IMG/VR virus record: IMGVR_UViG_3300024262_000296 | Coordinates: 1-21,333 of that record | Direction: 5' to 3' (one strand) | DNA: 21,333 bases | Source of the DNA: a virus | In this document: positions 785 through 21,333 of the stretch, piece after piece | How the letters are laid out: each line of letters opens with the position of its first letter | Numbering within the stretch: the first letter of the stretch is position 1 | Translations under genes and position numbers: made by a program | Notes under the pieces: generated by a model | What the model was told of the DNA's origin: nothing | Database searches by the model: none | What the model saw: only the letters and a program-made list of their open reading frames with translations

Positions 785-1347
785 TGAAATCTCCATTTTA
801 CTTTATTGCAAAGCCAAAAAATGGAAAAAGATACGATAACACAAAAGATATATCAGGAATAGAATTTATTGTTAGTACTTCTGAAGAAGACCATAAGTTC
901 TCAAACCGATATGCTGAGGTTATTGAAGTCCCATTAGGCTACACCGGTCCTATAGAAATAGGAGACACTCTACTTGTTCATCATAACGCTTTTAAGTATT
1001 ATAATGATATGAGGGGTCGTCAAAAAAGCGGAAAAAGTTTTTTTAAAGATGATTTATTCTTTATTGAGACAGACCAATTTTTTATGTATAAAAAGAATGA
1101 TAAATGGTTTTCTTATGACAGATATTGCTTTGTTAAGCCAATTCCTGCAATAGAGTCTTATATAAAAAAACCATTTAAAAATGAGCCTCTTATGGCTAAA
1201 ATGATTTATCCAAATGATTATCTTTTAAGTCAGGGAGTTAATGAAGGGGATATTGTTTGTTTCACACCTGATAGTGAATATGAATTTACTGTTGATGGAG
1301 AGAAGTTGTATCGTATGTATGACCACCAAATAACAATTAAGCTATGA
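784..1347 (+). CDS. GroES-like (Cpn10) co-chaperonin, possibly tandem-domain
   Basis: A 187-aa protein whose N-terminal part lines up with Cpn10 in order. An opening strand (FYFIAKPK) is followed by GIEFIV and a polar stretch STSEEDHKFSNR, as in the GroES mobile loop. Then come EVIEVPLGYTG and IEIGDTLLVHHNAF, the equivalent of the family's KVGDIVIF strand. The C-terminal part repeats the theme: MAKMIYPNDYLL, GVNEGDIVCFTP, EYEFTVDGEKLYRM and a terminal ITIKL, like the ESDILAIV end of GroES. The length is about twice that of GroES (97 aa) and well above T4 gp31 (111 aa), so two Cpn10-like halves are possible. In the family, Cpn10 caps GroEL to fold substrates, and phage versions can help fold the capsid protein. 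This assignment comes from pattern recognition only. An unrelated beta-barrel protein is the main alternative. It overlaps both neighbours. Confidence 0.5.
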   Translation: MKSPFYFIAKPKNGKRYDNTKDISGIEFIVSTSEEDHKFSNRYAEVIEVPLGYTGPIEIGDTLLVHHNAFKYYNDMRGRQKSGKSFFKDDLFFIETDQFFMYKKNDKWFSYDRYCFVKPIPAIESYIKKPFKNEPLMAKMIYPNDYLLSQGVNEGDIVCFTPDSEYEFTVDGEKLYRMYDHQITIKL

Positions 1348-1910
1348 TAAATATTGTAGATGATTTTTTAGAAGAAGATATTTATAACTACGTTTATAAT
1401 AGCTTGACAAGTAATCAATTTCAAGAAGTTGAAGTTGGAGACAAAAAGTTTTGGGTTCAATATAGCAACGAAGAATTTGATAATTTTATTATCAATAAAT
1501 TAAGTGATATAGATAAAACTAAAAGAGAATGCCTATTAGGTTTCTTTAGAGTAGCAACTGAGGAGTTTGATACTGATTGGAGAATACACGCAGACTCAAA
1601 GGTGGGAGATATTAGACCCGAACGAGCACTTGTGTTGTATATATCTCCATCTACAAAAGAAGGGCTACACGGAACAGCTTTTTGGAAACACAAAAGGGAT
1701 GGTTACGAGATGCCTTTAGATGTGTCTAATGAAGAGGCAGATAGGTTTCTCTCAGAAGAAGCAAACAATTTAGATAATTGGGATTTACACTCTGTTGTTG
1801 GTTATAGACCAAATAGAGCGTTGATGTATCCTTCAAATTATTTTCATAGTAAATATCCAAATACAGGTTGGAAAGAAGGAAGAATGGTTTATGTAATGTT
1901 TTATAGATAA
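1344..1910 (+). CDS. 2-oxoglutarate/Fe(II)-dependent oxygenase
   Basis: A 188-aa protein with the 2OG-Fe(II) double-stranded beta-helix signature. H82-A-D84 in WRIHADSK is the HxD pair, H168 in YFHSKYP is the distal iron ligand, and R180 in EGRMVYVMFY lies 12 residues later, where the 2OG carboxylate is bound. Length and spacing fit the small prolyl-hydroxylase-like (P4Hc-type) oxygenases common in phages. Such enzymes use 2-oxoglutarate and O2 to hydroxylate proteins, nucleobases or small molecules; the substrate here cannot be told. No membrane segment or signal peptide is seen. The ATG overlaps the upstream stop (ATGA), so it is co-translated with the GroES-like gene. Its place in the packaging operon makes a virion or chaperonin-bound protein a conceivable target, which is speculation. 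Confidence 0.75.
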   Translation: MINIVDDFLEEDIYNYVYNSLTSNQFQEVEVGDKKFWVQYSNEEFDNFIINKLSDIDKTKRECLLGFFRVATEEFDTDWRIHADSKVGDIRPERALVLYISPSTKEGLHGTAFWKHKRDGYEMPLDVSNEEADRFLSEEANNLDNWDLHSVVGYRPNRALMYPSNYFHSKYPNTGWKEGRMVYVMFYR

Positions 1911-10353: not shown

Positions 10354-11304
10354 ATGATAAACGAAGTTAGAAATACAGTATTGTCCATTCTTAATAAGAA
10401 TAATTATGGATATATTTCTCCATCAGACTTTAATTTATTTGCAGTTAATGCACAAATGGAGATATACGAAGAATATTTTAGTAGCTATAATAAAGTTGTA
10501 AATGCTGAAAATGCTCGCTCTTCAGGAACTGATTATGCAGATATTGAAAGTCCTATTGCTGAAACGTTAGAAACTTTCTTAAAAACAAGTTATTTGTCTC
10601 ATATTGGAGGAAACTCTTTTTCTGCACCATCTATTACAACTACAGGAGATACTGCATATTATATTTTAAAGCTAATAACTCATTCAACATTATTAGTTTC
10701 AGGTACAAATACAGTATTAGTACCTATTGGACTTGGAGATAGTACTGCATCATTTTTATCAGATGGTATTTCTCAAGGAGATATTGTAGTAAATACCTCA
10801 ACAGATAATGCTGCAAGTGTTGTTTCTGTTGTTTCAAATAATGCAATAATACTTGATTCTGATATATTTACAGCTACACCTGAAAATTATAAGATATTTT
10901 CTCAAGTAGCTAAAGAAGCAGACAAAGTTAGTGTTGGAAAAATAACTATGTTAAACAGTTCTTTACTTACAAGTCCTTCAAATATATATCCTTCTTATAC
11001 ATTAGAAGGGAATAGAATTAAGTTATATCCATCTACGATTAACGATTACGGGCAAATAGAATGCGTTTATTTTAGACACCCTTTACCTCCGAAATGGACC
11101 TATATTACATTAGCAAGTGGAGAGCCTGTATTTGACCAATCTCAGGCTGATTATCAAGACTTTGAGTTACCTGAGGAAGATGCTTACAAATTAGTTACAA
11201 AAATGCTTGAATATTGTGGTATGTCTATCAGAGAAACTGAAGTTACTCAGTTTGGTATGACGCAGCAATCTCACGAGCAACCTACATTTAGTGTACAACA
11301 ATAA
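10354..11304 (+). CDS. Neck/ring (head-tail connector) protein
   Basis: A 316-aa protein opening the tail operon. The start is ATG 10354 (MINEVRNTVLSILNK). The frame extends upstream to a GTG at 10312, but that lies inside the terminator and promoter and is not a credible start. The N-terminal ~90 residues are helical (YGYISPSDFNLFAVNAQMEI). A beta module at about 121-187 follows (GISQGDIVVN, VVSVVSNNAIILDSDIF). The C-terminal part has IECVYFRHPLPPKWTYI, EEDAYKLVTKMLEYCGMSI and a Gln-rich tail. Between the capsid and nozzle genes, with another adaptor next, it fits a ring protein of the podovirus neck. I cannot say which ring it forms. The next gene starts 13 nt after the stop. Confidence 0.65.
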   Translation: MINEVRNTVLSILNKNNYGYISPSDFNLFAVNAQMEIYEEYFSSYNKVVNAENARSSGTDYADIESPIAETLETFLKTSYLSHIGGNSFSAPSITTTGDTAYYILKLITHSTLLVSGTNTVLVPIGLGDSTASFLSDGISQGDIVVNTSTDNAASVVSVVSNNAIILDSDIFTATPENYKIFSQVAKEADKVSVGKITMLNSSLLTSPSNIYPSYTLEGNRIKLYPSTINDYGQIECVYFRHPLPPKWTYITLASGEPVFDQSQADYQDFELPEEDAYKLVTKMLEYCGMSIRETEVTQFGMTQQSHEQPTFSVQQ

Positions 11305-11316
11305 AAATAAATACAA

Positions 11317-12228
11317 ATGGCATATTTATCACAATACCAATACTATGATAATGACGGAAACCAACCACAAGATGCTAATTGGGGGTCTTATCAGTATGTG
11401 AGCCTTGAGGATATAGTAAACAATTACTTATTAATGTACTCAGGAAACCATTCATTAGTGAATAATGAAGAGCGTTACAAAATATTATTTCACGCAAAAC
11501 GTGCTATTCAAGAGCTTAATTATGATGCGTTTAAAGAGGTAAAAGTTTTAGAGTTAAGCGTTGCTGATTCTTTAAGATTTGTGTTGCCGTCTGATTTTGT
11601 GAATTGGGTTCGCATATCTTTATATAAAAACGGTTGGCTTAGACCTTTAACTGAGAACATTCAGGTTTTATCTTCAAAGGCGTATTTGCAGGACCAACAA
11701 GGGAATATTTTATTTGATATTGACGGTAATATTCTTGAGCCTCAATATTCAAATATTGATTTTGATAGACTTACAAAAACCAAGAAAAGTATATATCTAA
11801 ATAGAGGTCATCAGTTTGACGGTATGGAAGGTTGGTGTTTTAATGGAGATTGGTACTTTGAAAAAAGGTTTGGATTAAATACAGAAACAGCTAATTTTAA
11901 CCCAACTTTCAATATCGACAAGAAAGCAGGGGTTATTAATTTTGATTCAAGTATGGCAGGAGAATCCTGTATTCTTGAGTATATTTCAGATGGTATGGAA
12001 GGAGGAGACAACTCTTTAATAACTGTAAATAAATTGTTTGAAAAATATATTTACGCTTATATTACTTATGAGATTCTTAATTCTAAACTTGGCGTTCAAG
12101 AATACATTGTTGCAAGAGCAAGAAAAGAAAAAACAGCTTTATTTAGAAATTCAAAAATAAGAATTAGCAATATACACCCGGGCAGACTATTGATGAACCT
12201 AAGAGGAATGGATAAGATAATAAAATAA
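11317..12228 (+). CDS. Head-tail adaptor / tail tubular protein
   Basis: A 303-aa protein just before the nozzle gene, where T7 gp11-like or P22 gp4-like adaptors are found. The N-terminus has a conserved-looking WGSYQYVSLEDIVNNYLLMY. A helical segment follows (ERYKILFHAKRAIQELNYDA), then strands with LPSDFVNWVRISLYKNGW. The C-terminal half continues with KLFEKYIYAYITYEIL and a basic helix (YIVARARKEKTALFRNSKIR). The helical-bundle-plus-strand layout with a helical C-terminus fits the adaptor fold, which forms a 12-mer between portal or ring and nozzle. The start ATG has an A-rich leader (AATAAATACAA). The nozzle ATG lies 1 nt after its stop, so the two are probably translated in step. Confidence 0.7.
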   Translation: MAYLSQYQYYDNDGNQPQDANWGSYQYVSLEDIVNNYLLMYSGNHSLVNNEERYKILFHAKRAIQELNYDAFKEVKVLELSVADSLRFVLPSDFVNWVRISLYKNGWLRPLTENIQVLSSKAYLQDQQGNILFDIDGNILEPQYSNIDFDRLTKTKKSIYLNRGHQFDGMEGWCFNGDWYFEKRFGLNTETANFNPTFNIDKKAGVINFDSSMAGESCILEYISDGMEGGDNSLITVNKLFEKYIYAYITYEILNSKLGVQEYIVARARKEKTALFRNSKIRISNIHPGRLLMNLRGMDKIIK

Positions 12229-12229
12229 T

Positions 12230-15200
12230 ATGGCAAATTTAACAAGAATTTTTATAGCAGGAAGAATGAATAAAATCGTTGATGAACGATTACTTCCTGA
12301 TGGAGAATATGTTGATGCTATGAATGTTAGAATGGGTTCTACCGAGAACTCAGAAGTGGGTGTTATCTCTAATACAAAAGGAAATACTCCGTTAACTGCA
12401 TTAGCATACATAAACGGAACTCCTCTTAGCGTAAATGCAAGATGTATTGGGGCTATTGCAGATAGTGCAAATGAAACAATATATTGGTTTATTCACGACA
12501 GCACTTTCCCTATAGGGGCTACAGGAAAACTTGATTTAATAGTTTCTTATAATGTTTATACTGACGTATTAACATATCATATAGTTAGCATAAACGATGG
12601 AGGTGGCGTAAATACAACTTTAAATTTTAATCCTACATACCTTATAACAGGAGTAGATATTATTGAAGACTTATTGTTTTTTACAGACGATTATAATGCT
12701 CCAAGAGTTATTAATACTAAAAAAAATTATCCTAATCCTATATCAAATATAGACCAACTAAATCCTGAATCAATTCTTGTAATAAAGAAGCCGCCTACTG
12801 AATCTCCTACAGTTCAACTACTTTCAACAAGTGGTCAGGAAAATTATTTAGAAGAAAGATTTATTTCTTTTGCATACAGATATGAATACGAAAACGGAGA
12901 GTGCTCTGCTACTTCTCAATGGTCAGATATTGCTTTTGTACCAAGACCTTTTCAGTTTAGTATTAACAGTATGCTTAATGAAGGTATGACAAATGCTGTA
13001 AATACAGCTGTTGTTACATATAATTCAGGAGGACCATTAGTTGTTGGAATTGACTTATTGTTTAAGCAATCTAATAACAATATAATTAAAATTATTGAAA
13101 AATTAAATAAAGCTGATTTAGGTCTTGCTGATTACAATGATTATCAATTTTCTTTTAATAATAGTAAAATTTTTACCATATTAAGAGATTCTGAAATACT
13201 AAGACTTTACGATAATGTACCTCGATTTGCTAAAGCCCAAACTATTATGGGTAATAGACTTATGTATGGTAACTATGTAGAAGGCTATGATTTACTTGAT
13301 AAAAATGGTCAACCTGTTAAATTTGAATATATTCCTACGTTAATTACTGAAGACATAGGTCTTGTGGCGATTCCTGATTCGACAGCTTCAGGAAGTTATA
13401 GCATTAATGGTCCTTTATCTATACCTAATTCAGTTGTATTTATTGACCTTACAGGAGCTAATCTTGTTGCAGGGTCATTTATAAGTTTAAGTATAAGAAT
13501 TGCTCATAGTGCTTTTTCAGGTACATTACCTGACCCTTCAGAAACAACAGATACTACAGAGTTTACATTTGACTTTTTTTTAAACCAAGATTATTCGTCA
13601 GTATATGAGTTAGCAACAAGTGTTCAGTTTCAGGAAGCTGTAGGTACTTCTGCAAGCATATTGCCTGTATATGACCCCACTCCGGGAGCCGAAACTTCTT
13701 GTGATGGTCAAACATTTACAGACTCAGTAAATTGTGCTTTACCTCAGAACTTAGATGCTTTAATAAAAGTAGGAAGTGGTATATCTGCTGTTGGACAACC
13801 TATAAAAATAATAACATCTCCTGCAAGTTCTCAGATAGGATTTCAAATTATTGCTATGAAATACGAGGATAATCCTGTTACACCAACAGGCTTTGTTTAT
13901 GAGTATTATTCAGTAATATATGCTGATGCTGTTTTTCAATTAATAGGAAATCCAAGAGGTTTGCATAGTAATAGAGGGTATGAGATAGGTATTGTTTATA
14001 TGGACGAATTTAATAGAGCTTCAACAGCTTTAGTAAGTCCTAATAATACAATATATATCCCTTGTGGTTTTTCAGACAAAAAGAACTCTATACAGGTTAA
14101 TATACCTATTACACAAAGAGCTCCTGAGTGGGCAAAAAGATATAAGTTTGTAATTAAACCCGATGAGGAAAATTACGAAACAATTTACTGTAATTTATTC
14201 TTTACTGACCCTGAGACTAATGCTGTTTGGTTTTATTTAGAAGGGGAAAATACCAAAAAGGTAGAGATTGGGGATAAGTTAGTTGTTAAGGCAGATACAG
14301 ATGGTCCAAGACAAAATTGTGCTTATGCTACAATATTAGATAAGCAAACCAAAGAAGCAGGATTTATAGAGCCTATAGACGATGTGCCTGTACCTCCGGG
14401 GTTATATGTAAAAATAAATCCTAATAGTTTTTCAGCAGTACTTGACCCTAATGCTATTGTAAATTTAGGAAGCGAAACTGTTTGTGCTCCAAAAGGAGGT
14501 AATTATCGTATTTTAAGATATACTGTAAACCAACCTGACCCTGCCAATCCGGGAATGTTCATAGATTATACAATTCCCGCAGGAAGCATAATAGAACTAA
14601 ATCTTGATTGGAACAGAGCAGGAGTTGGAGCCTCTTGTGAACGAAGAGGGTATATTCTTGACAAAAGACTTACGTCTTCTTCTGATTATGACAATTTTGA
14701 AGATTGGTGGAATGGAGATAATGTTCAGCAAATATTAGATACAGGAATATCTAAAGACGGAAGTACTGAATTAGAATACATACCTACTAATGGATATTTG
14801 AGTAGTACAAATTTTTCAACAATGTATCTTCAGTTTTATAGAAACCCTGTAACAAATGAATTATTGCTTCAAATGTCAACAGGTAAAAGCTGTACAGGTG
14901 TTGGTTATCCACGCTCAAGAAAATACTGCGTTACTTCTAATATTAATGTTTTTAGAGCTATTGATACTATTATATTTGAAACTGAACCTCAAGATGCTTT
15001 GCCTGATATTTTCTTTGAAAATAACTTATCTTTTTCTATTGATGCTGATGGAAACCACGAAGGTAATGTTCAAAGTCAAAACATTGCAGGTAATATCCCT
15101 GCTATCGTAAATACTGAGTTTTTTAATTGTTTTGCATTTGGAAATGGAGCAGAGAGTTATAAAATTAGAGACTCTATTATAGGTAGAAGTTTCAACTTGG

Positions 15201-17065
15201 GAGAAAGAGTTACTACGGTTGCTGAGCAAAACTACGAGGAAGCTGATAGATTTTCGGATATTACTTATAGCGGTAACTTTAATTTAGAGACCAATGTAAA
15301 TAGACTTAATGAGTTCAATAAAGGACTATCTAACTATAAAAACTGTGAGGCTTCTTTTGGAGAGATTTTTATATTGGACGGAAGAACAACAGATGTTCTT
15401 GTTTTACAAGAAGACAAAATATCTTACGTTTTAGCTGAGAAAAATTTGTTGTCAGACGCATCGGCAGGAGATATAATTACGGCATCTCCTGAGGTGTTAG
15501 GGACTCAGATAGCAAGAGTAGAGAAATATGGAATAAGTTTTAACCCTGAGAGTTATGTTCAGTGGGGATACGATAGATTCTTTACAGATGTCAAAAGAGG
15601 AGCTGTTCTTCAAATGAAAGGGGATTCTCCTCAAGGAGAGCAATTGGTTGTTATTTCTGACCAAAGTATGAGAACTTGGTTTAGAGATACTTTCAATAAC
15701 TCTTTTAATACTCAAAAACTTGGAGGGTTTGACCCATATATGAATGAGTATGTTTTGAGTATGAACAATATATTATTACCTGTAAGTCCTCAATGTTTAT
15801 CTTGTGGTGTAAGCCAAACATTTACATTGTCAGTTAATGAGGAATTATCTAAGCAAACTGTTTATTGTGTTGACTTAGGTCCACTTGTTGGGTTTACTCA
15901 AGTTAGTTGGATATTTACAAGTATAGAGGTTGGTGCTACATTTAACGTTGAAGTGAATTATAATGGAACAATAGTATCATCAGGTCCTACAAATGTTAAT
16001 GGAAGTTTGTCTTTTAATAAAAATAGCATATTAGTAGAGACAGCTGAAATAACGCTGACTTATACGGGAGATATGGTTGTGTCTGTTTTAGCAGATTGTT
16101 GTGAAGCAGAGCTTTTAAATATAGTTGAAGTTGTTCTTACAAATAACTCTGAGGCAGGTCAAACCATTCACTCTCAATACAGATATACAAATGGTGCTTT
16201 TGTTGGACCATTATTATCAAACTTGGTTTTGTTTGGAAGCGGCTCAGGTACGCCTCTTGTTTCAAGATATAATATAACGTCAGGATTTGTAGGAGAAGGA
16301 GGGTTTCCTCCTGAATCAAGTACAATGAGATTATCCACAAACAAAATATCTCCTGACACTTATGATTTTGATATTTTACAAGATAAGTTTAGGTACTTTA
16401 GAAGCCCTGTTTTGTTTGATAATAATGATATTGATATTCAGGCTTTGTTAGTTGCTTCATCAGTAGCAACGCCAAATGCAGGAAGTACGCCTTTATTCTA
16501 TGCAGATTTTACTGTTCCTGCAAGTGTTAATGGAGACTATTTATATTTAATTTGGGATTTAAGAGATTCAATACCTGCTGAGTTATGTTTTGCTTCAAGT
16601 GTTATAGACGCTTGTTGTGATTGTACTCCGGGTAATTACTTTTTAAATGCTGCTTTTATAAATTCAACTTCTATTTTTACAGATGCAGATATGACAACTT
16701 TTGCTCCAAATGGATTCTATTCTTTTGAAGGAATTGTTAGAGAGTTGGTAGATGGAGTATTATTACCTCCTCAAACTTGCAATGTCTGTGGTGTTGAAGT
16801 ATCTTTGTGTTTTGGAATAAGTGAAGAAGATGTATGTTGTAATTGCAATGATACTTGCGATACTGCGTTTAATCTTTACTATGTTAGCAATCCAACAGCA
16901 GCATCTGTTCTTGTTGGATACTACAATGAAAACGGAATATTTCAACAAAATTCACTACCTGCGGGAGCAGTAGATGTTACTTATTGCAGCATAGGAGCAC
17001 CAACTTGCAGTGAACCATTAGTAGAAGCAACTATAACTTTTCAATCTTGCGATTGTTTAATATAA
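12230..17065 (+). CDS. Tail nozzle/muzzle (stabilisation) protein with Cys-rich C-terminal extension
   Basis: A 1611-aa protein. The N-terminal block RIFIAGRMNKIVDERLLPDG followed by VDAMNVRMGS and EVGVISNTKGN is the opening I associate with podovirus tail-stabilisation proteins (T7 gp12-like beta-propeller nozzles; muzzle in crAss-like phages). Further matching parts are ERFISFAYRYEYENGECSA (~210-228), QRAPEWAKRYKFVIKPDEEN (~630) and GGFDPYMNEYVLSMNN (~1164-1179). From ~1189 (CLSCG) the protein leaves the nozzle pattern and becomes beta-rich and Cys-rich. About 15 Cys lie in the last 160 residues, many as CC, CxC or CxxC. A ~51-residue module at 1470-1520 is repeated in the next gene. It presumably forms the distal gate of the tail and its extension an exposed decoration. 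The usual nozzle continuation is instead in the gene at 18026. Confidence 0.82.
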   Translation: MANLTRIFIAGRMNKIVDERLLPDGEYVDAMNVRMGSTENSEVGVISNTKGNTPLTALAYINGTPLSVNARCIGAIADSANETIYWFIHDSTFPIGATGKLDLIVSYNVYTDVLTYHIVSINDGGGVNTTLNFNPTYLITGVDIIEDLLFFTDDYNAPRVINTKKNYPNPISNIDQLNPESILVIKKPPTESPTVQLLSTSGQENYLEERFISFAYRYEYENGECSATSQWSDIAFVPRPFQFSINSMLNEGMTNAVNTAVVTYNSGGPLVVGIDLLFKQSNNNIIKIIEKLNKADLGLADYNDYQFSFNNSKIFTILRDSEILRLYDNVPRFAKAQTIMGNRLMYGNYVEGYDLLDKNGQPVKFEYIPTLITEDIGLVAIPDSTASGSYSINGPLSIPNSVVFIDLTGANLVAGSFISLSIRIAHSAFSGTLPDPSETTDTTEFTFDFFLNQDYSSVYELATSVQFQEAVGTSASILPVYDPTPGAETSCDGQTFTDSVNCALPQNLDALIKVGSGISAVGQPIKIITSPASSQIGFQIIAMKYEDNPVTPTGFVYEYYSVIYADAVFQLIGNPRGLHSNRGYEIGIVYMDEFNRASTALVSPNNTIYIPCGFSDKKNSIQVNIPITQRAPEWAKRYKFVIKPDEENYETIYCNLFFTDPETNAVWFYLEGENTKKVEIGDKLVVKADTDGPRQNCAYATILDKQTKEAGFIEPIDDVPVPPGLYVKINPNSFSAVLDPNAIVNLGSETVCAPKGGNYRILRYTVNQPDPANPGMFIDYTIPAGSIIELNLDWNRAGVGASCERRGYILDKRLTSSSDYDNFEDWWNGDNVQQILDTGISKDGSTELEYIPTNGYLSSTNFSTMYLQFYRNPVTNELLLQMSTGKSCTGVGYPRSRKYCVTSNINVFRAIDTIIFETEPQDALPDIFFENNLSFSIDADGNHEGNVQSQNIAGNIPAIVNTEFFNCFAFGNGAESYKIRDSIIGRSFNLGERVTTVAEQNYEEADRFSDITYSGNFNLETNVNRLNEFNKGLSNYKNCEASFGEIFILDGRTTDVLVLQEDKISYVLAEKNLLSDASAGDIITASPEVLGTQIARVEKYGISFNPESYVQWGYDRFFTDVKRGAVLQMKGDSPQGEQLVVISDQSMRTWFRDTFNNSFNTQKLGGFDPYMNEYVLSMNNILLPVSPQCLSCGVSQTFTLSVNEELSKQTVYCVDLGPLVGFTQVSWIFTSIEVGATFNVEVNYNGTIVSSGPTNVNGSLSFNKNSILVETAEITLTYTGDMVVSVLADCCEAELLNIVEVVLTNNSEAGQTIHSQYRYTNGAFVGPLLSNLVLFGSGSGTPLVSRYNITSGFVGEGGFPPESSTMRLSTNKISPDTYDFDILQDKFRYFRSPVLFDNNDIDIQALLVASSVATPNAGSTPLFYADFTVPASVNGDYLYLIWDLRDSIPAELCFASSVIDACCDCTPGNYFLNAAFINSTSIFTDADMTTFAPNGFYSFEGIVRELVDGVLLPPQTCNVCGVEVSLCFGISEEDVCCNCNDTCDTAFNLYYVSNPTAASVLVGYYNENGIFQQNSLPAGAVDVTYCSIGAPTCSEPLVEATITFQSCDCLI

Positions 17066-18017
17066 TTAAAATATGGCAGTAAATACAACATATTATTTAG
17101 ATGCGGCTGATTTGTCATTAGCAACAGCCGTATATTTAGATTCAGCATTATCTTTCATAGCTCCCGATGGATTTTATGGAGATGGAGTAATATCAAGACA
17201 GCAGTCATTAGGAATGCTTTTGGCTGCTAATGCTTGTCCTACTTGTGCGACTCCTTGTGGAGGGACAATTTCAGGCTCAGGAGGGCAAGGGGTATTTTTA
17301 TTGAATTTAGATGCAGGAGGTACTCCTTCTGATATTGGAGCTATAGTAGTTACTTTTAATCCTGCATATCAACCTGACGGAATAAGAGCTACTTATGATG
17401 GAAATATTTATAATAAATTAAGTTCTCCGTTAGACGGGCTTCATCAAAGCACAGACCCAACTGCTTATACGGTAGTAGGGAGTTCAGGGTCTGATTGTGG
17501 TTTAGCAGGAAATACAACTAACTTTCCTACAATTAATGAGTATTTATATAGCGGAACAGGATTTGTAGCTACAGGTAACACTCAAAACATAACCGTAAAT
17601 CCCGGAGATGTATCTTTAAGTCCAACAACTGTTGGGAATTGTATTATGGTAATACCAAAACCAAATGCTACTCCTAATATTGTTAATTTAGAGTTTTTAG
17701 GACCTTGTGGTGGTACTGCTTGGACTTTAGCTATAGCTTGCCCTGCACTTTTACCATCTTTTTCAAGTACTGATATGAGAATAAATGCTAATATTCCTTG
17801 TGGAGATTCATTTACAGAAACTTATTATTTTGCTAAAGTTCATACCACTGCTGATTCATACGTTGGTCAATACGATTATGTTTTTGAAGATGCTTTTGGT
17901 GCTGTTCCTTTAGCTGATGGATACTATATGACGGACAACGTAGCGGTTCCAAATAAAGTTTTGCACGTAGTAAACGGAATAGTAACAACATTATCAAATT
18001 GCGTTTAATATAATTAA
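17056..18017 (+). repeat. Repeated 14-nt gene boundary (TTTAATATAATTAA)
   Basis: The identical 14-mer occurs at 17056-17069 and 18004-18017, each spanning the stop codon and spacer of a Cys-rich-ending gene. The stop codon falls at different places within it, so the coding frame is not the reason for conservation. The AT-only sequence makes chance likely, but the repeat brackets exactly the gene at 17073, as expected if that gene arose by duplication or insertion. Confidence 0.4.
17073..18008 (+). CDS. Cys-rich tail-associated protein with two copies of a module shared with the nozzle
   Basis: A 311-aa, Gly/Thr/Ser-rich, beta-type protein. Residues 7-62 (YYLD, D17, APDGFY at 24-29, R42, GMLL, C55-PT-C58, C62) line up with nozzle residues 1470-1520 with a one-residue offset. 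A looser copy closes the chain at about 252-310 (TYYFAKVHTT, VFEDAFGAVPLADGYYM, HVVNGIV, final Cys). Between them is a beta domain with DIGAIVVTFNP, DGIRATYDGNIYNKLSSP, NTQNITVNPGDVSLSP and FLGPCGGTAW. No signal peptide or membrane segment is present. It begins 8 nt after the nozzle gene and sits before the gene carrying the nozzle-like distal domain. A tail-tip decoration or receptor-binding accessory is my inference; no enzymatic motif is seen. Confidence 0.7.
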   Translation: MAVNTTYYLDAADLSLATAVYLDSALSFIAPDGFYGDGVISRQQSLGMLLAANACPTCATPCGGTISGSGGQGVFLLNLDAGGTPSDIGAIVVTFNPAYQPDGIRATYDGNIYNKLSSPLDGLHQSTDPTAYTVVGSSGSDCGLAGNTTNFPTINEYLYSGTGFVATGNTQNITVNPGDVSLSPTTVGNCIMVIPKPNATPNIVNLEFLGPCGGTAWTLAIACPALLPSFSSTDMRINANIPCGDSFTETYYFAKVHTTADSYVGQYDYVFEDAFGAVPLADGYYMTDNVAVPNKVLHVVNGIVTTLSNCV

Positions 18018-18025
18018 TTGAAAAT

Positions 18026-18853
18026 ATGGATTACACAATATCATATAGCGAAGGAGTTGCCGGTTGGGTATCTTTTTATTCTTACAATCCTGATTGGATG
18101 ATTGGAATGAACAATTATTTCTATACTTTTAAGGGAGGTAATATATACCGGCACAATGTAAATGAAAAGCGTAATACTTTTTATCAACCATGGTGGGATA
18201 GAGTGGACTACCCTATTGTGCCTTCTCCAAATGCATTTACACCAACGAGTATTCAGAGTGTTTTTAATAATTCAACTCTTGAAAATAAATTGTTTAAAAC
18301 TTTAAACTTAGAAGGAGATTCTCCTTGGAGTGCTACAATGATAACAGACCTTCAACTGTCAGGATTTATTGAGCAGAATTGGTTTGAAAAGAAAGAAGCA
18401 TCTTATTTTGCATTTGTTAGAAATAACACTATTGGAGAGTTTGCATTAAGAAGTTTGAATGGTATAGGAAATAGCCTTACTGTAACAGGTTCAGGCTCAT
18501 CAGCTGCAACAATAAACTTTAGTATATCTCCATTGGTATCAATAGGAAATATTATAAGCATTGGAGACTATGTATATTTTGGACACCCTACTCCAAATTT
18601 TGCAGGACAGGTTACGGCTATAAATGTAGATTTACCAAATGGGGTAAACCAAATCGTTATCAATAATGCAATGTTAGTACCTCTTTCGGTTCCAATTCCG
18701 GGGAATGTAAACTTTTTCTTCTATGTCAAAAACTCAGTTGCAGAATCACACGGAGTGTTAGGACACTATTGTACGTTTACTCTGCAAAATAGTTTTAATA
18801 GTAAAATTGAATTATTTGCAGTAGAAACAGAAGTTATGAAAAGTTTCCCATAA
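18026..18853 (+). CDS. Nozzle-like distal tail protein (probable split-off C-terminal part of the nozzle)
   Basis: A 275-aa protein. The start MDYTISYSEGVAGWVSFYSY, then PDWMIGMNNYFYTFKGGNIY and RHNVNEKRNTFY, then ENKLFKTLNLEGDSPW, ITDLQLSGFIEQNWFEKKEA and a closing KIELFAVETEVMKSFP are patterns I recall from the C-terminal portion of single-chain podovirus nozzle proteins. There they follow the FDPYMNEYVLS-type block. Here that block is near residue 1170 of the upstream nozzle gene, and these parts lie in a separate gene two frames downstream. Residues ~150-240 carry a beta module (SIGDYVYFG, AGQVTAINVDLPNGVNQIVI) like those in the capsid and ring proteins. It probably assembles with the large nozzle. 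The leader TTGAAAAT is A-rich. Confidence 0.68.
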   Translation: MDYTISYSEGVAGWVSFYSYNPDWMIGMNNYFYTFKGGNIYRHNVNEKRNTFYQPWWDRVDYPIVPSPNAFTPTSIQSVFNNSTLENKLFKTLNLEGDSPWSATMITDLQLSGFIEQNWFEKKEASYFAFVRNNTIGEFALRSLNGIGNSLTVTGSGSSAATINFSISPLVSIGNIISIGDYVYFGHPTPNFAGQVTAINVDLPNGVNQIVINNAMLVPLSVPIPGNVNFFFYVKNSVAESHGVLGHYCTFTLQNSFNSKIELFAVETEVMKSFP

Positions 18854-18859
18854 TTTTAA

Positions 18860-18867
18860 TATCTTTG
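18860..18867 (+). promoter_or_regulatory. Possible -7 element, near-leaderless
   Basis: TATCTTTG fits TAnnTTTG and is followed by TAA, as in the other three copies, but it lies only 6 nt before the ATG at 18873. Transcription would start at or next to the start codon, giving a leaderless mRNA. No -33 box is seen. It could be chance in AT-rich DNA, or it could uncouple the acetyltransferase gene from the tail operon. Confidence 0.35.
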
Positions 18868-18872
18868 TAACT

Positions 18873-19283
18873 ATGGAATTAACTATTAGACAACTTAACG
18901 ACAATGATTACCAAGATATACTTGTAGATTGGTGGACTGTTTGGGGGTGGACAGCTCCTGAAAAAGACTTTCTTCCTGATGACGGAAAAGGAGGTTATAT
19001 TGTATATGATGGAGATATTCCTGTTTGTGCAGGATTTATTTATATAACCAACTCAAGAGTTGCTTGGGTTGATTGGATAATTTCAAATAAAGATTATAGA
19101 GAAAAAGAAAAAAGAAAAAAAGCTATAACAATACTTATAGACACTTTAACTAATCTTAGTAAAATGTCAGGAAGTAAATACGCTTATGCTTTAATAAAAA
19201 ACGACAGTTTAATTCAAACGTATGAAAGTCTTGGTTATGTAAAAGGCGATTCGTACACAAGTGAAATGATAAAATTATTATAA
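18873..19283 (+). CDS. GNAT-like N-acetyltransferase
   Basis: A 136-aa protein with the order of the GNAT fold: an N-terminal strand and helix (MELTIRQLNDNDYQDILVDW), beta strands GGYIVYDGDIPVCAGFIYI and AWVDWIISNKDYR, a helix with LIDTLTNLS, then YAYALIKNDSLIQTYESLGY and a final strand. The late N-D-S/YESLGY segment is typical of the acetyl-CoA end of the fold. The usual pyrophosphate loop (Q/R-x-x-G-x-G/A) is degenerate: after DYRE comes KEKRKKAI, with no Gly, so CoA binding may be altered. GNAT enzymes transfer acetyl from acetyl-CoA to an amine; the substrate is unknown. The gene lies between tail and internal-protein genes with a 19-nt gap upstream and 1 nt downstream. Confidence 0.68.
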   Translation: MELTIRQLNDNDYQDILVDWWTVWGWTAPEKDFLPDDGKGGYIVYDGDIPVCAGFIYITNSRVAWVDWIISNKDYREKEKRKKAITILIDTLTNLSKMSGSKYAYALIKNDSLIQTYESLGYVKGDSYTSEMIKLL

Positions 19284-19284
19284 A

Positions 19285-20106
19285 ATGGGAGTAGCAACAG
19301 CAGTAGCAATAGGTGGTTTAGCTATATCAGCAGCATCAACTACAATATCATTTGTCCAAGCGGGGCAACAAAAAAAGGCTCAAAGAGCAGCAGTAGCAAA
19401 AGCTGCTGAGGCAATGGCAGAAGCCCGTAAAAAACTTGAAATAAACTATGCTGAAGAGTTATCTATAAAAAAAGAACCTTATGAGCTTGAGAGAGAAGCT
19501 ATGCTTGCTCAAGGAGCTTTAGCTATGCAAGCAGGAGTTGAAAGCGATAGAGGTGCTGAAGCTACAGCGGGCAAACTTCAAATGGCACAAAATGTAGGTC
19601 AAGCAGCAATAAGAGGAGTTATGGGGCAGGAATTAGGTGTAATCGAAGAGAAGATAATAAATGAAGATAGCAGATTAAGAGATGTTGGTGTTCAATTAGA
19701 TTTAGGCGAAGTTGAGGGTGCTCAGTTAGCAGCAAGAGATGCTGAAGAAGCAAGGGCTGCGGCTATGGCTCAAGGGTTTGAAGGTGTTTCAAATACTCTT
19801 CAACAAGGTCTTGCTATGGTTCCTTTGTTTCAGAAATCAGCCGCTACAAAACAACTTGGTAAAATGTGGTCAGAAGCTCAAAAATTAAATCCAAACCTGA
19901 CTCAGTCAGATTTTCAAAAACAATTTGCTTCCTTATCAGGAACAAAAGGTTACGGGTCGTTGGCAGGAGTTGGAGAAATGGACGCTAATGCTTTTAATGC
20001 AACTATGAGTGGATATTCAAAACGAGAATTAAAAGAAATGCAAAAAATAATGGCTCAAGCAAGGAGATTAGGTTCAAGCGCTGTTTCAGGAATTTTAGGA
20101 ACTTAA
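19285..20106 (+). CDS. Internal virion / ejection protein (T7 gp14-like in layout)
   Basis: A 273-aa protein. A hydrophobic N-terminal segment rich in small residues (GVATAVAIGGLAISAASTTI, residues 2-21) is followed by a basic Gln/Lys patch. A long Ala/Glu/Gln-rich coiled-coil-like region follows to about residue 165, then a looser Gly/Ser/Lys-rich C-terminus. This pattern, one membrane-inserting helix plus an Ala-rich helical body, matches small internal core proteins such as T7 gp14, which enter the host envelope during ejection. Its place after the tail genes and before another large Gln/Asp-rich protein also fits an ejection cassette. There is no sequence motif that proves it; a non-ejected head core protein is the alternative. 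It begins 1 nt after the acetyltransferase stop. Confidence 0.62.
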   Translation: MGVATAVAIGGLAISAASTTISFVQAGQQKKAQRAAVAKAAEAMAEARKKLEINYAEELSIKKEPYELEREAMLAQGALAMQAGVESDRGAEATAGKLQMAQNVGQAAIRGVMGQELGVIEEKIINEDSRLRDVGVQLDLGEVEGAQLAARDAEEARAAAMAQGFEGVSNTLQQGLAMVPLFQKSAATKQLGKMWSEAQKLNPNLTQSDFQKQFASLSGTKGYGSLAGVGEMDANAFNATMSGYSKRELKEMQKIMAQARRLGSSAVSGILGT

Positions 20107-20117
20107 TACTATAAAAA

Positions 20118-21333
20118 ATGGCAGGTACATACTATAAATATGCAGAACGGGACGCAGACTCGCAGATAAATTGGGCTGAGGTTGGCAAGGGTATAAGTGA
20201 TATGCTTGCCGAAACAAATCGTGTTAGACAAGAAAAGAAAGATGCGATTGATGCTGCTACACGACAATTTGCAACTGAGTTATCAAATGCTCCTCAAGGA
20301 CAAAACCAAGATATAAATAATTTTACTAATAAGTACGCCCATACTATGATGGAACAAATGCGTATTGATGAGCAGTTATTAAAGTCAGGACAAATGCCTC
20401 TTGATAAATATACATTAAGAAGACAAAATTATGTTGACGGAACAAATCAACTTTTTGACCTTTCTACATTATTTCAAGGTGAGCATAAGAAAAAAATGGA
20501 AGGGGTAAACTCAGGAGATTTGCAGGCAATAAACATATTCAATATGAGTACTGTAGAAGGGTATGGAGATTTTAATAACTCAGAAGCTGTAATAGACTCT
20601 ATGGGAGACGGAAGAGTAAACATTGGTTTATATGAAAATAAAATTATAGACGGCAAAACAGTAAAAGTTTTATCTAAAAACATAGCACCTGTAAATGTTA
20701 TCAGGGGTAAGATACTTCAAAATGTTCCTACATTTAAAGTTGAAGAAGCTACCACAGCTACAGTTAAAGGTTTTGGAGCAAGAAAAGATGTGCTGTATCA
20801 AGCCGCTACCTTGTTAGGAGCAGGTAGTATAACAGAGCTTATGGGTCCTGACTTCTTGGCTACAAATCCTGACCCTACTACTCAGAAAATAGTAAAAGAT
20901 ATGAACGAAGCTATTGATGACCAAATTAGTAGTTATTTCTCTAATCCATATAATATTACTTCTGTATTAACTCAAAACACAGGTAGTTATGGTGCTGATT
21001 CTTTTATATTTGATAAAGAAGAAGCTGCTAAAGATAGCTCAAAAATACTTGTAAAGGTTGACCCAAATACAAATATGACTACTTTGGATACAGATGGTCC
21101 AAACTATAAAGCACAAAAGGAAGAGGCTTCTGCTTGGGTTAAAACTAATATACTTAGCAAGATAGACCAAGAGAGAAGTATCAAAACCACAGCTCAAAAT
21201 CAATTACAAGAAAGAAGACCTAAAACTGCTGAGGAAAATGCTCGTACAGATATGGAGAAAGATGCTGAAAACTTTGCACTTAATACTTCATATATCTTGA
21301 CAGGTACTGATGCTCAGAAAGCTCAAGATATGG
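20118..21333 (+). CDS. Large internal virion protein candidate, 3' end beyond the window
   Basis: The frame is open from ATG 20118 (MAGTYYKYAERDADSQINWA) through 405 codons to the window edge. The ATG has an A-rich leader (ATAAAAA) 11 nt after the previous stop. The visible part is hydrophilic, Gln/Asp/Asn/Lys-rich and largely helical (EVGKGISDMLAETNRVRQEK, YAHTMMEQMRIDEQLLKSG). It has no signal peptide or membrane segment and ends in a Gln/Lys/Glu-rich coiled-coil-like stretch. The first ~100 residues look like the N-terminal helical part of podovirus internal or cargo proteins, which often exceed 700 aa. Following the gp14-like gene supports an ejection or cargo role. No lytic transglycosylase or other catalytic motif is seen in the part present. 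Confidence 0.7.
   Translation, partial: MAGTYYKYAERDADSQINWAEVGKGISDMLAETNRVRQEKKDAIDAATRQFATELSNAPQGQNQDINNFTNKYAHTMMEQMRIDEQLLKSGQMPLDKYTLRRQNYVDGTNQLFDLSTLFQGEHKKKMEGVNSGDLQAINIFNMSTVEGYGDFNNSEAVIDSMGDGRVNIGLYENKIIDGKTVKVLSKNIAPVNVIRGKILQNVPTFKVEEATTATVKGFGARKDVLYQAATLLGAGSITELMGPDFLATNPDPTTQKIVKDMNEAIDDQISSYFSNPYNITSVLTQNTGSYGADSFIFDKEEAAKDSSKILVKVDPNTNMTTLDTDGPNYKAQKEEASAWVKTNILSKIDQERSIKTTAQNQLQERRPKTAEENARTDMEKDAENFALNTSYILTGTDAQKAQDM

Follow-up and report, generated by a model that had tools for sequence, protein, structure and literature searches.

A probable two-chain podophage nozzle, split at a propeller-blade hairpin that bears a modular arm

The window, meaning the whole stretch of DNA analysed here, is a 21-kb viral metagenomic fragment (IMGVR_UViG_3300024262_000296, positions 1-21,333). 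It carries a podophage structural operon in which the genes for terminase, portal, capsid and further virion proteins lead to three genes for proteins of 1611, 311 and 275 amino acids, all encoded on the plus strand. A comparison of gene order places the muzzle genes after a ring/adaptor (ring/tail tubular) gene in the window, in Cellulophaga phages phi13:2 and phi38:1, in Flavobacterium phage elemoF and in crAss001. A conserved small gene is located directly after the 275-aa gene (18873-19283; phrog_17252, E 2e-42) and its product has weak similarity to acetyltransferases. Genes of similar length also follow the muzzle in phi13:2, phi38:1, elemoF and the Manatee Spring genome MW202828. Far upstream in the window (1344-1910) there is a gene for a 188-aa protein that, by eye, has the look of a 2-oxoglutarate/Fe(II) oxygenase (IHAD...H...R pattern).

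The 1611-aa gene begins with the N chain (residues 1-1180; 12230-15769), which ends in FDPYMNEYVLSMNN, the last strand before the break. This block begins at residue 1167. At the break the N chain continues into the INS domain (residues 1188-1465; 15791-16624), a Cys-containing beta-sandwich region that is recognised by a profile (E 3e-128). The remainder of the protein consists of Cys-rich tail modules (residues 1466-1611; 16625-17062), including a small Cys module at residues 1469-1520 (16634-16789) that is homologous to the start of the next gene product. That product, a separate 311-aa arm protein called X (17073-18008; delineated with profiles and alignment A5), is composed of a Cys module at residues 6-58, a middle domain at 69-225 and a related end module at 250-310. 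The third gene (18026-18853) encodes the 275-aa C chain, which opens with MDYTISYSEGVAGWVSFYSYNPD and would comprise the post-break strands, the last blade and the C-terminal domain. A sequence-only reading of this DNA had proposed that the nozzle part of the long gene stops at the FDPYMNEYVLSMNN block and continues at residue 4 of the gene at 18026, with Cys-rich extra residues and a whole gene lying between. This description holds at each point, the intervening material being residues 1186-1611 together with the X gene. There are 20 cysteines in residues 1186-1611 (4.7%) versus 13 in residues 1-1185 (1.1%).

The same reading stated that these parts form one chain in related phages, and this is the case for phi38:1 gp97, elemoF gp22, Tenacibaculum phage Gundel_60 and crAss001 gp44. 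The linker between the N and C parts is only 5 residues in phi38:1, 16 in elemoF and 5 in Gundel_60, and a profile alignment puts the join point of crAss001 gp44 near residues 1196-1203. The 1611-aa protein matches PHROG 14478 (E 9e-203), and its N chain aligns end to end with the single-chain proteins of phi38:1, elemoF and Gundel. The 275-aa protein matches PHROG 38031 and PHROG 18548 (E 2.5e-29 for the latter), and it aligns to the single-chain forms over its full length, from the break onward (alignment A1). The single chain of phi38:1 gp97 matches both PHROG 14478 and PHROG 18548. The window thus has the pattern of phi13:2, wherein an N part in PHROG 14478 and a stand-alone C part in PHROG 18548 are adjacent and collinear.

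The C chain also matches the Pfam model for the crassvirus muzzle C-terminal domain (PF25729, crAss_MUZ_C) at residues 72-134 (18239-18427), with 47.6 bits against a curated cut-off of 27 and an E value of 2.4e-12. Its proposed identity as the distal part of a nozzle or muzzle is therefore upheld. Similarly, a family profile aligns with crAss001 gp44 residues 1049-1281 across the break (hhalign probability 96, E 2.8e-9). The main muzzle model, PF25731 (cut-off also 27), has no match on the window N chain and scores 20.7 bits on the C chain, below the cut-off. Among the single-chain relatives Gundel_60 passes with 61.2, and phi38:1 and elemoF do not pass. The window nozzle is therefore best regarded as a homologue and variant, and not as a plain member of PF25731. 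PDB sequence searches with the C protein, the N chain and alignments A1, A3, A4 and A5 gave chance matches only, so the link to crAss001 is drawn from Pfam, hhalign and Foldseek, and the relation is a distant one.

The position of the break can be seen in an AlphaFold2 model of the C-terminal ~580 residues of phi38:1 gp97, which was built from a 99-row alignment that includes both window pieces. The propeller and C-terminal fold of a nozzle are recognised through this homologue model only, with the window pieces in its alignment. The mean pLDDT of the model is 74.7, with values of about 85-92 around the break. Its best PDB match by Foldseek is the crAss001 muzzle 7qol (E 6.4e-14), with 7qok also matched, and the next matches are podophage nozzle or tail proteins including those of SU10, T7, VP1 and P22. 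The TM-scores are 0.43 and below, in part because the model covers only part of a nozzle. There is a run of four strands at 316-350 (316-321, 326-331, 335-340 and 345-350), and the break coincides with the three-residue turn at 332-334, between strands 326-331 and 335-340. Judged from its secondary structure in the model, this run appears to form one propeller blade, which would put the break between its second and third strands. In T7 gp12 an N-terminal strand completes the propeller, and the chain terminates in an adaptor-binding platform (PMC6702177). If this layout holds here, the C chain would give strands to two blades and would make the ring contact.

There are 215 distinct homologous loci (identical pairs removed), which were gathered with the window C protein, a profile and the C parts of phi13:2, phi38:1, MW202828 and elemoF. 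They include 169 split and 46 single-chain loci, a ratio that is not a natural frequency because the sample is made of relatives of the queries. The columns of the break or join are constant across all 215 loci. At this point the single-chain forms have linkers of 2-20, 38-177 or about 1100 residues, and the N tails of the split forms extend for 42 to about 1000 residues. The two pieces of the split loci are most often separated by one predicted gene (129 loci), and otherwise by none (28), two (6), three (1), four (3) or five (2). Cultured representatives with the split are Cellulophaga phages phi13:2, phi18:3, phi19:3 and phi46:3. With the PF25729 match given above (E 2.4e-12), the common break in 169 loci puts the observation of a split nozzle far beyond chance. 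A search for the host via bacterial genome contigs found no relatives.

In a tree of 66 representatives, the window is found inside a 50-row clade whose members are all split. The split or single-chain label changes four times on this tree, with at least three of the changes forced by well-supported branches, and three times when three long-branch rows are removed. A single origin of the splits is disfavoured by these four (or three) changes, and one split clade is only marginally rejected (p-AU 0.047). The split is broad and old, and may have arisen once or a few times.

The sequence-only reading had pointed to stand-alone C pieces beside an intact muzzle as an arrangement at odds with its proposal. 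There is none in 40 long viral records, the class of record on which this check depends since the window record is too short for its own. A single C match is present in 38 of these 40, and each of 87 phage records with a match has it at one place. One exception (G038) is a 99.6-kb record with two single-chain muzzles (L306 and L307 on contig IMGVR_UViG_3300046002_004363), which is possibly two joined phages. In the other (G031), the C part itself is broken near column 145 and the end of the nozzle lies in a separate 120-aa frame (L257; G031:C1:7665-7985, 10700-11221). A second break or large insertion point near this profile column, within the C domain, is also observed in L291, L292 and L300.

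The same reading went on to suggest that a cassette had been inserted into the nozzle gene. Extra material is indeed present at one internal point, and a 'decoration' role for it is plausible. The split is common to a large clade and to the cultured phi13:2, and hence a fresh insertion peculiar to this phage is the part of the suggestion that must be given up. The reading was right on the anatomy; the split is old and its site is a modular port.

The INS domain is found in the N tail of 153 of the 169 split loci and in none of the single-chain linkers. The other 16 split loci lack it in their N tail, and thus INS is not needed for the split. The whole insertion models as beta-sandwich domains (pLDDT 89); a more specific fold was considered and set aside, the structural matches being generic beta-sandwiches with low TM-scores. 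Where a separate arm gene has the small Cys module, the module opens that gene in 125 of 126 loci. It was found in 14 of 21 records searched, with one or two matches per record, always within the long frame of the nozzle or a short one adjacent to it and never outside the muzzle locus. Seven loci, phi13:2 gp120 among them, have the middle domain of X as a fused part of the N chain, and X is present twice in L041. The gene boundaries among the added modules shift between phages, and the modules are ordered like one long chain that has been cut variously.

Some relatives have in-frame insertions at the break point in a chain that remains unsplit. Two single-chain muzzles (L295 and L297) carry about 1100 residues at the hairpin and no INS, showing that even a very long insertion does not require a split. 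In other loci (L276-L287, L272 and L224) the C chain is extended at its N terminus by an added domain of 97-262 residues, and PHROG 38031 (460 aa) is shaped like a C chain with such a domain. Extra domains can thus be attached on either side of the break.

Other contents of the cassette are worth recording. In L164, L166, L187, L224 and L272, the genes between the pieces include some that by eye resemble 2-oxoglutarate/Fe(II) prolyl-hydroxylase-type oxygenases, glycosyltransferases and a sugar epimerase, and these adjoin Pro-rich arm proteins. Judging from these likenesses, hydroxyproline glycosylation of the tail tip could take place in these phages. In L288, L294 and L302, the N tail is just 47 residues long and there is a different four-gene cassette (846-1004, 136, 291-293 and 87 aa), which includes a Gly-rich protein that looks tail-adhesin-like by eye.

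Selection on the pieces was estimated as dN/dS from nine comparisons with relatives, using a simple counting method with partly saturated synonymous sites. The C chain has values of 0.08-0.16 and the N core 0.10-0.22, followed by INS with 0.11-0.22, the N-chain tail modules with 0.17-0.39 and X, which evolves fastest, with 0.26-0.52 (the value of 0.52 comes from 86 codons). The C gene is under strong purifying selection, and the N chain likewise.

Given the observed homology and collinearity of the pieces, the position and breadth of the break, the conservation of both chains and the variability of the cassette, it is probable that a single podophage nozzle of the crassvirus muzzle type is encoded by the two outer genes as an N chain and a C chain, with the split at a blade hairpin and a modular arm carried there. 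Two strands of the broken blade would come from the C chain, as would the C-terminal domain and most of the last blade, in which case the two chains must interlock to form a working nozzle subunit. Their reassembly on the tail, as the sequence-only reading proposed, is a natural prediction from the sequence. The blade hairpin would act as a port for added modules, with the N chain carrying an open-ended arm made of INS, the Cys-rich modules and the separate X protein, which would attach to it. Because the chain is cut at the hairpin, this arm need not return to the propeller. An insert in an intact hairpin must rejoin its ends, a constraint from which a cut chain is free, and this may be why INS is found only with the split. 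Phages might then acquire, drop, fuse or swap arm genes and still retain the nozzle, and the arm probably contacts the host surface.

One possibility, to which we give less credence, is that the arm (INS, modules and X) serves mainly to brace the split nozzle structurally or to clamp it by disulfides, and not to contact the host. The low dN/dS of INS, its occurrence with the split and never in single chains, and the abundance of Cys in the region would suit a clamp. However, the outer arm differs in content between phages and changes fastest, as expected of exposed parts, and there are the 16 split loci whose N tail is without INS.

It is improbable that the C protein has become an independent tail protein while the N chain closes the propeller alone. 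The C gene does stand alone and sometimes has the added N-terminal domain described above, yet it retains the strands from the break onward and its full-length alignment to the single-chain forms, and its dN/dS is as low as that of the N core or lower. Moreover, the N chain always stops at one column, no conserved replacement strands come after it, and its tail is merely 42-47 residues in some relatives.

The start of the C gene is located a median of 6 nucleotides past the preceding stop, and its frame relative to the preceding gene is distributed over all three frames (69, 47 and 41 of 157 loci). This spacing and the use of all three frames point to separately translated proteins, possibly coupled, and argue against readthrough or frameshifting. 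It is very unlikely that the pieces are rejoined at the RNA or protein level (by a group I intron, intein, readthrough or frameshift) to give a mature nozzle of one chain. Some crAss-like phages are rich in introns and inteins (PMC7886860), and phi13:2 gp120 and gp121 are in the same frame, separated by a single stop and one further codon. However, there are no RNA family matches in window positions 11000-21333 and no intein in the Pfam search, so an RNA element or intron was discarded as a candidate, as were readthrough and frameshifting because the C frame is not conserved across loci. In addition, the intervening stretch is a conserved protein with dN/dS well below 1 and its own start and stop codons. 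An assembly error or the decay of a broken gene, to which a metagenomic fragment such as the window might be prone, is contradicted by the common break in 169 distinct loci and four cultured phages and by purifying selection on all pieces, and is hardly credible.

A nozzle of two chains thus remains the favoured reading, and its closest known counterparts differ from it in instructive ways. The crAss001 muzzle gp44 (PF25731/PF25729; PDB 7qok, 7qol and 8ckb) resembles it in the PF25729 match on the C chain, the profile alignment over the break, the best structural match and the place after a ring/tail tubular gene. In contrast, gp44 is one chain where the window has two genes with another between them, and PF25731 misses the window N chain. 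The large insertions reported for gp44 (PMC10172136) belong to IG2 and the crass domain, and are not presented as the splitting of a gene at a late propeller blade. Cellulophaga phi13:2 gp120/gp121 (Pachyviridae; PHROG 14478 and 18548) has the common split point, INS and an X-type middle domain, but it uses two genes rather than three, with the X-type domain fused to the N chain and an extra Big_9/cadherin-like domain. Podoviridae sp. ctfjg026 from Manatee Spring (MW202828) has three genes in the same order, with 49% identity in the N part and 50% in the C part, but its 183-aa middle gene product has only the first Cys module in common with X. The proteins of phi38:1, elemoF and Gundel_60 are homologous over the N core and C part, but are unsplit with linkers of 5-16 residues and no INS. 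T7 gp12 has a seven-bladed propeller followed by an adaptor-binding C-terminal part, and one of its blade loops holds an inserted tip domain (PMC6702177). It is similar in its propeller and C-terminal part and is a structural match to the phi38:1 model, but it is one chain with its insertion in blade 3 and has no multi-gene cassette.

Deposited genomes already contain the split (phi13:2 gp120/gp121 and MW202828), with the pieces annotated just as separate structural proteins, and PHROGs hold the N and C parts as separate families. We found no description of a split muzzle or nozzle in the literature searched, which was mostly outside subscription journals. PHROG 18548 and PHROG 38031, listed as having unknown function, can be reannotated as the missing end of the nozzle. 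A pressure-tight nozzle and a tip that makes contact have been established or proposed for T7 gp12 (PMC6702177) and crAss001 (PMC10172136), and for crAss001 a muzzle tip that contacts the cell and varies by insertions is a proposal (PMC10172136).

Although a nozzle has to contain DNA under pressure, one blade here appears to be built from two gene products, an arrangement that is kept in many phages. The break offers a natural split point for studies of propeller folding, and a two-chain nozzle is directly testable in cultured Cellulophaga phages of the phi13:2 group. Perhaps, and we raise this only tentatively, the blade hairpin is a general docking port and the repeated Cys module is a head-to-tail coupler of separately encoded arm proteins. 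If such coupling is true, the host-contact arm could be lengthened or exchanged gene by gene. The cassette is, in any case, a concrete place to seek host-range variation in phages of aquatic Bacteroidota, and the split with its modular port seems to be an ancient, conserved means of varying the tail tip without giving up the nozzle.
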